This document shows, in pieces, positions 37,601 to 38,668 of a stretch of DNA of 64,000 nucleotides (the stretch's first letter is position 1; each line of letters begins with the position of its first letter). The notes below the pieces were generated by a model. It had not been told where the DNA came from and ran no database searches. It saw only the letters and a list, made by a program, of their open reading frames with translations. The stretch is from Ascidia mentula (Eukaryota; Chordata; Ascidiacea; Phlebobranchia; Ascidiidae), in assembly GCA_947561715.1 (NCBI GenBank), contig OX387201.1:5784001-5848000 (forward strand), written 5' to 3'. A program made the position numbers and the translations under genes.

Positions 37601-38668
37601 CTTTCCAGATGCCAGGTGGTAGTAATGTGAGTTGTTAAGAAGAGCCTTGGAGGGAATGCAGCCAACATTTAAACATGTCCCTCCAAGTGTGGACTCTTTT
37701 TCAATGCAAACTGTCTGCAAAAGTAACATAGGTCAATGGAAATTAAACTACAAAAAAAAACAGATATGTATGTGGGTATTTGTCAACAACCGGCATTACA
37801 AGGTTTTTTTGAATGTTTATGTTTTTCCAGCGTTTCAACTTACGTTTACACAAATACAAAACATAACAGTTAAACTCACACGAATCTAACTCATACCTTG
37901 AAGCCTAACTGAGCAGCTTTAATAGCGGCGACATAACCACCAGGACCTGAACCAATGACGACCAAATCAGCATTGTGTGTTGTTCCACCACTGTAACTTG
38001 CAGAGAGAACTTGTGGTAGTCGTCGTGAATGAGGTGAGCTAACCTACAGATAAAACTTACTGTCAAACTTATAGTCTACAAGAGCAATTACAAATATAGA
38101 AATCAAATAATACTAGGTAGGTTCGGTACCTAGTATAGGGTACCCTGCAGATCGACGTTGACCGAAAGGTACCACAAAGTGGAGACTAGTGTGCCTGCTA
38201 GTGTGAAAGCTAGCACAGTGCCACACAACAGCTGCACTGATGAGACCTTACAGGTCGAAACAGTGCGTGTACACACCCTGTCTGCAGCTTTGCAATATTA
38301 TGGCTTTTTTTGCACATAAATCAAATAACTTGCATGGATTAACAATAAACAACAGCACAAATATTTTACTAAGCACAGCAAGAAATTTGTATTTATTTGG
38401 TTGTCACTTGTCAGGATTTTAAGTACCCGGTGGCCCCTGATTGGTGAGAATGGCATGCGTGGAGGATTTATAAATTTTTATCAGCAATATGCGCATAAAC
38501 AAAAAGCTAATGCATTAACATACGAAAATCGACAGTTTTTCCGCGCACTCGACTTTCGCCAAAAAAAATCCTCTACGCAAATTACATAATTTCCAATCTA
38601 GTGGCCTAACAACAACTCTTCAAATTACCAATACTCACATTAATTATACGTGAAACAAACTTTAACAT
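34688..38668 (-). CDS. DLD: Dihydrolipoamide dehydrogenase, mitochondrial (E3)
   Basis: E3 reoxidises dihydrolipoamide with FAD and NAD+ in the pyruvate, 2-oxoglutarate and branched-chain dehydrogenase complexes and the glycine cleavage system, in the mitochondrial matrix. Eleven exons (38639-38668, 37897-38043, 37576-37714, 37068-37210, 36894-36992, 36506-36696, 36346-36444, 35955-36125, 35431-35681, 35005-35171, 34688-34756) sum to 1506 nt, 501 residues; human DLD has 509. [10 protein letters not shown] and an Arg/Ser-rich stretch form a plausible import signal. Visible motifs are [10 protein letters not shown] (FAD), [13 protein letters not shown] (redox cysteines), [17 protein letters not shown] (NAD), [20 protein letters not shown], and CHAHPTLSEAF (catalytic His-Pro in the dimer interface). 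Intron 1 carries an antisense hammerhead element. Everything needed for activity is present. Confidence 0.97.
38231..38288 (+). ncRNA. Type I hammerhead ribozyme, family 1 (DLD intron 1, antisense)
   Basis: Complete motif: stem I GCTGCA (38231-38236), CTGATGA (38237-38243), stem II GACCT/AGGTC closed by TAC, GAAA, stem III ACAG/CTGT with a 14-nt loop containing GTG/CAC, cleavage C at 38282, and TGCAGC (38283-38288) pairing perfectly with GCTGCA. Every invariant hammerhead base I know of is present. It lies on the strand opposite DLD. The following ATTATGGCT block recurs near the other copies, marking a dispersed element. Confidence 0.9.

Follow-up and report, generated by a model that had tools for sequence, protein, structure and literature searches.

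The window, by which the whole analysed stretch of 64,000 nucleotides is meant, contains the exons of a dihydrolipoyl dehydrogenase gene (Table 1). The identity of the joined exons is 86% with Phallusia mammillata, 81% with Ciona intestinalis, and 79% with Clavelina, which makes a phlebobranch ascidian close to Phallusia the most likely host, though at 86% hardly P. mammillata itself. Insertion 1, a short element that carries a hammerhead motif (copy 1) and is bounded by a target-site duplication, lies directly upstream of the outermost of these exons as found. Two other insertions of this kind, with copies 2 and 3, are present in the window. Threonine-rich, mucin-like open frames recur within it, two plus-strand stretches repeat each other as judged by eye, and a tRNA gene was found with a score of 68.4 bits, the anticodon of which is, from the alignment, apparently GTT (Asn).

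Table 1. Positions of the elements, hammerhead motifs, and neighbouring features in the window
Feature	Position	Strand	Remarks
Retrozyme insertion 1, family B	38111..38317	+	207 bp, between target-site duplications; opens with a short fold-back of its own sequence; long tail reaching 35 nt beyond the predicted cut; no inverted tail leader
Target-site duplication of insertion 1, left copy	38100..38110	+	AAATCAAATAA, 11 bp
Target-site duplication of insertion 1, right copy	38318..38328	+	AAATCAAATAA, 11 bp
Retrozyme insertion 2, family A	3941..4038	+	98 bp; long tail of 41 nt; inverted tail leader absent
Target-site duplication of insertion 2, left copy	3928..3940	+	GTTATTAGGTTGT, 13 bp
Target-site duplication of insertion 2, right copy	4039..4051	+	GTTATTAGGTTGT, 13 bp
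Retrozyme insertion 3, family B, tail type B2	21782..21889	-	108 bp; order: inverted long-tail leader, hammerhead, short tail of 14 nt
Target-site duplication upstream of insertion 3	21890..21900	-	ATTATGCATGT (minus-strand reading), 11 bp
Target-site duplication downstream of insertion 3	21771..21781	-	ATTATGCATGT (minus-strand reading), 11 bp
Hammerhead copy 1, type I motif	38230..38289	+	direct reading, descriptor, folding; predicted cut after 38282
Hammerhead copy 2	3955..4001	+	stem I of just 4 contiguous bp; descriptor scan
Hammerhead copy 3, type I motif	21789..21848	-	as complete as copy 1; descriptor scan, folding
Decayed fourth copy	27290..27470	+	CTGATGA preserved at 27409, pairing of stem II lost; pattern scan
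Dihydrolipoyl dehydrogenase gene exons	34987..38043	-	
Threonine-rich, mucin-like open frames	45544..46032	-	
Threonine-rich, mucin-like open frames	56017..57953	-	
Mutual repeat, first stretch	45593..46114	+	by eye
Mutual repeat, second stretch	46624..47118	+	by eye
tRNA gene	61791..61864	+	

The sequence-only reading had placed a complete type I hammerhead at 38231-38288. The motif is as described there, and its pairing runs one base further on each side. All core bases, including GAAA and C38282, can be read directly from the sequence; CUGANGA, GAAA, and H17 lie between three helices with stem I open, the arrangement of type I. The stems comprise 7 bp (stem I, AGCTGCA/TGCAGCT), 5 bp (stem II, GACCT/AGGTC), and 4 bp (stem III, ACAG/CTGT). 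With the 7-bp stem I, the 60-nt form has the hammerhead as its minimum-energy fold (-19.2 kcal/mol); the 58-mer exactly as first given takes up a different fold (-18.9 kcal/mol, z -1.42). The same reading had the design recur elsewhere with its stems kept, which holds in full for copy 3 and in part for copy 2, where the core, stem II, and stem III are present and stem I is short. The decayed fourth copy was absent from its list. No loop I was recognised by eye in the hammerhead flanks, and the 7-bp stem I has no visible internal loop, so that the canonical type I tertiary contact between loop I and loop II is only conjectural, which weighs against the main reading given below. Self-cleavage is predicted after position 38282.

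Chance occurrence of such motifs was estimated with descriptors. A strict one, requiring at least 5, 4, and 3 bp in its stems, gave two matches in the window and none on either strand of 8 Mb simulated by a first-order Markov model with the composition of the window, and a laxer one gave three and four matches, respectively. The pattern CTGATGA-N6-30-GAAAC occurs four times in the window, whereas 100 shuffles average 0.18 occurrences. In the 195.8-Mb assembly (79 contigs), the exact core plus stem II pattern CTGATGAGACCT-N2-7-AGGTCGAAACAGT was found 766 + 773 = 1,539 times and its reversed control 0 times, and these matches are repeat copies, not 1,539 independent events. The idea that a hammerhead family is spread through this genome is borne out, as is its placement on a dispersed, many-copy element that moves by retrotransposition, given the 1,539 core matches and the target-site duplications described below. 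The sequence-only reading also called the family active, and this activity stands as a prediction.

The Rfam models gave a different picture. At gathering score no hammerhead family was called over the window, the sole match being a tRNA. The best hammerhead model, RAGATH-1 hammerhead (RF03152), reached 30.2 bits for copy 1 and 29.7 bits for copy 3 with a cut-off of 56.3, and Hammerhead_3, aligned out of register on copy 1, scored 24.8 bits where its cut-off is 48.5. A genome search with RF00163, in which 73 of 27,659 candidates were scored, returned no score, and since none of 14 control genomes gave a match either, this result shows no absence. The sequence-only reading had itself declared that the lack of a significant covariance-model score would refute its claim, and formally, at the Rfam cut-offs in the window, this is the outcome. 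For so short a motif, Rfam was rejected as the only test. In our view, more weight belongs to the descriptor statistics, to the copy number, and to the related hammerheads that other element families carry than to the sub-cut-off scores.

The element that hosts the hammerhead is a non-autonomous metazoan retrozyme, a kind already known. Its tandem form, a short monomer with one hammerhead each, occurs in locus L031, which consists of 5.9 direct units of 285 bp with 99% identity and carries six direct hammerheads with one inverted hammerhead ahead of them; most other loci compared are not tandem. One family A monomer has a GC content of 0.474, within the limit of about 50% below which retrozymes lie, and as a circle has 67% of its bases paired versus 63% in shuffles (energy z -2.6, 100 shuffles). 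The 285-bp monomer is too short to encode a reverse transcriptase (RT) and a GIY-YIG endonuclease. Families differ in stem III: ACAG-TGGCCAT-CTGT is present in 44 of 76 distinct retrozyme hammerheads, which make up families A and C, while most other hammerheads form family B, in which self-complementary segments, for example GTGTACAC or GTGTATACAC, extend stem III. This sample was drawn by the exact core plus stem II and comes, besides the window, entirely from contig C1, so other families may be missed. Family B retrozymes of the loci L040 and L041 lie within duplicated segments with CUB/LDLa/trypsin-like exons (by eye). The stretch between two family B copies there was considered as an autonomous element and rejected, as its frames look, by eye, like a duplicated host gene of that CUB/LDLa/trypsin-like type.

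Insertion was studied on 62 loci, the limits of which were set by their similarity to three or more other copies. Fourteen were removed, 12 of them in segmental duplications of another locus and two (L002, L013) mis-bounded or locus-sharing. An exact boundary repeat of at least 11 bp was found in 24 of 48 loci (L010, later set aside, among them), compared with 0.3% of 2,256 mismatched left-right pairs. L010 and L023 were also set aside before the tail analysis, and target-site duplications of 9-15 bp, longer than the 4 bp that retrozyme duplications should exceed, are present in 25 of the resulting 46 non-redundant loci. The other 21 have no boundary repeat of at least 9 bp, which speaks against the main reading given below. 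The duplication of L092, an A-rich 10-mer that lies off the boundaries, is perhaps a chance repeat. Copies measure 62-1,823 bp, and 23 of the 25 insertions with a duplication are shorter than 600 bp. Among the 100 listed of the 1,539 genome matches, hammerhead neighbours within 1.5 kb form 11 head-to-head, 5 tandem, and 0 tail-to-tail pairs; another listing contains one tail-to-tail family A pair (C70:6587401+/6587704-, in G000:C70:6587401-6587739), contrary to the head-to-head rule.

The ends of these insertions follow a reciprocal pattern. For 18 of the 25 duplication-bearing insertions the two ends were mappable, a leader being accepted when 10-14 nt matched with at least 85% identity, and each of the 18 has one long and one short tail, the left one inverted. 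Nine are long on the left and short on the right, nine the reverse, and none is long-long or short-short; with random pairing and fixed margins, the probability of such complete reciprocity is 2e-5. Short tails extend 3-17 nt and long tails 33-48 nt past the hammerhead cut, with none between. Among 22 further loci the cut site was readable in 18, and the four with a clear inverted leader (L001, L024, L032, L099) are all reciprocal. The stretch between the short and the long end is alike in families A and B (ATATTATTGGCT versus ATTATTATGGCT). Against the main reading, no leader was mapped in 7 of the 25 insertions (L029, L088, L089, L092, L098, and window copies 1 and 2).

Penelope-like elements are present in the same genome. 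A GIY-YIG profile search gave at least 121 matches, with 150 of 382 candidates scored. An array on contig C67 contains five GIY-YIG domains, two leftward and three rightward. Its tandem units are 2,870 bp long and carry RT together with GIY-YIG in a single open frame, a hammerhead lies between successive open frames, and a 10-bp duplication AATCAATAAT was read by eye at its outer ends. The compared parts of the Penelope array L072-L075 (C67:6133200-6148000) are 100% identical, for which reason this array is probably young. In the sampled families, stem III of the minimal Penelope hammerheads, which were found by a scan requiring pairing, is a loopless palindrome AGCU or ACGU with few one-base variants, and stem I varies between families on both of its sides (TACAC/GTGTA, GCAC/GTGC, GTAGTA/TACTAT, AACC/GGTT, TTCT/AGAA). 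A pattern for two of these hammerhead families has 189 genome matches, with 0 for its control. A short Penelope remnant, L101 (C2:2725850-2726800), has two hammerheads head-to-head about 10 bp apart, forming a near-perfect hairpin with a 12-bp flanking repeat.

The ends of the Penelope elements resemble those of the retrozymes. Boundary repeats of 10-13 bp were found in six of nine copies (72 mismatched controls: mean 5.9, largest 10), and neighbours within 6 kb, among the 100 listed of the 189 matches, are head-to-head 15 times, the same way 5 times, and tail-to-tail 0 times. Ends extend beyond the hammerhead core by about 60 or about 100 nt, with one of each in 12 of 13 informative copies, six of which were judged long or short by eye (C67arr, L100, L103, L104, C52_1395, L123). 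The 13 were left from 15 rows after exclusion of L107, a duplicate of L103, and of the C67_642 pair with identical sides; the row for L104 is degenerate, and the automatic duplication finder chose an internal palindrome in several rows. L105, with a truncated left end, is the exception and counts against the main reading. An inverted leader with a long tail at one end only, taken as the mark of a Penelope-like mode of insertion, is seen in all 18 retrozymes mapped out of 25 and in 12 of 13 informative Penelope copies. A hammerhead or tail shared by retrozyme and Penelope was looked for and rejected in the Penelope loci compared. Apparent similarities (L043, L050, L061, L071, L111) are retrozymes near or inside the Penelope element, and outside such adjacent retrozymes the retrozyme tail sequence was not found in any Penelope locus compared, which again weighs against the main reading.

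Because many retrozyme copies share their unusual end structure with the Penelope elements of this genome, Penelope is proposed as their copying machine. Our main reading, to which we assign a probability of roughly 0.8, sees in the motif the type I hammerhead that belongs to a non-autonomous retrozyme, the RNA of which is copied by the RT/GIY-YIG protein of a Penelope-like element in the same genome. A tandem or read-through RNA would be cut by the hammerhead into monomers of about 285 nt, which, by analogy with published retrozymes, would probably circularise, and the Penelope protein would copy this RNA into DNA. Both target strands would be cut about 9-15 bp apart, the distance seen in the target-site duplications, and each 3' end would prime synthesis at either of two fixed positions on the RNA, separated by about 30 nt, as the reciprocal tails suggest. 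Joining of the two converging cDNAs would give the head-to-head ends that are seen, and a multimeric or circular template could yield the tandem units.

The strongest rival reading is that the hammerhead is a relic: the element spreads with a ribozyme that has lost its cleavage or cleaves only as a dimer. We regard this as unlikely, though with a real share of the probability. The scores below the Rfam cut-offs and the lack of a recognised loop I fit it, and so does the competing inactive helix in predicted folds. In family A with a short stem I, this helix is favoured (-12.8 or -13.3 versus -8.4 kcal/mol), the form with a 7-bp stem I is still 1.4 kcal/mol worse than the alternative fold, and the hammerhead of the circular family A monomer sits in an inactive helix; the linear folds in particular go against the main reading. 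The self-complementary stem III segments would permit dimers, and the Penelope hammerheads of this genome have the loopless AGCU/ACGU stem III, presumably the dimer type of Lunse 2017. On the other side, core and stems are common to families A, B, and C, of which the core carries no independent weight because it belonged to the sampling pattern, and the stem III extensions vary in sequence while mostly remaining self-complementary.

The other readings concern the mode of spread. Movement by a LINE through ordinary target-primed reverse transcription is improbable: the length of the duplications alone is compatible with it, but the reciprocal tail matches the Penelope elements of this genome instead, and a reciprocal two-position tail with an inverted, tail-derived leader is not known as a LINE pattern. 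The same comparison with LINEs was made for Nematostella repeats with 15-bp duplications (PMC4918200). Spread as satellite DNA, by unequal exchange and segmental duplication only, would suit the copies that do lie in duplicated segments (e.g., L010-L016, L018-L021, L040/L041), and is very improbable, since 25 of the 46 loci left after removal of duplicates carry target-site duplications, each at a site unrelated to the others. We give hardly any credence to a DNA transposon or MITE with the motif by chance inside its terminal inverted repeats. The head-to-head pairs do resemble inverted repeats, but the length (62-1,823 bp) and the duplication length are variable, units occur in tandem, and the ends are unequal; the variable ends rule this candidate out.

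Copying by Penelope machinery, as in the main reading, would make animal retrozymes true satellites of Penelope-like elements, that is, circular ribozyme RNAs primed at two sites, one per cut strand, with the reciprocal tail as the scar of complete insertions. We consider this generalisation probable, at a lesser level of confidence. In the literature covered, Penelope is only proposed as the copier of animal retrozymes (PMC7229834), and the reciprocal tails add structural evidence. They also offer a test usable on the sequence of any retrozyme-bearing genome, and the retrozyme would provide Penelope biology with a minimal template RNA that has two start sites.

Metazoan non-LTR retrozymes were described by Cervera and de la Pena (2020; PMC7229834), so the kind of element is a described one, a point the sequence-only reading had left undecided. 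In that report, Penelope elements are named as strong candidate mobiliser from shared hammerheads, tandem copies, and coexistence, and elsewhere retrozymes are said to possibly rely on PLEs (PMC8969392). The word "inverted" does not occur in the main text of PMC7229834, and no tail or inverted end of an animal retrozyme is described in the available portions of PMC7761336, PMC11722881, PMC8969392, and PMC8490949. A literature search for retrozymes with inverted repeat, tail, and target site duplication yielded no such description in titles or text passages, and one for tunicate or Ciona hammerheads no paper on such a family, both covering largely open literature. Nine type I hammerhead loci are reported for the ascidian Didemnum (PMC8704543). 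With respect to Penelope, PMC3846280 describes an inverted pLTR, duplications of 8-10 bp, and a 31-bp tail that is optional on one inverted pLTR, and PMC11167929 two adjacent RT start sites with a 30-40 bp tail, the stretch between them, which it calls unique to PLEs. The latter work also found hammerhead mutants to be without effect on insertion in vitro, which argues against the main reading.

The elements of this genome share with the metazoan retrozymes of PMC7229834 a type I hammerhead within short, tandemly repeated units (285 bp here versus about 170-400 nt reported), a GC content (0.474 in one monomer) and duplications of more than 4 bp of the reported kind, and coexistence with Penelope elements that carry minimal hammerheads. 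They differ in their ascidian host, in that no loop I was recognised, and in their head-to-head ends and reciprocal tails. RAGATH-1 is the closest Rfam hammerhead to window copies 1 and 3, yet below its cut-off. Unlike Penelope-like elements, the retrozyme has a monomer too short for RT and endonuclease, and its stem III is a stem-loop, whereas that of the Penelope elements found here consists of four bases without a loop. With Penelope-like elements, as portrayed in PMC3846280 and PMC11167929, the retrozymes have in common the inverted, head-to-head left end, the tandem direct units, the 30-40 bp tail at one end, and a hammerhead near the repeat junction, and the duplications are similar as well (8-10 bp published, 10-13 bp here).
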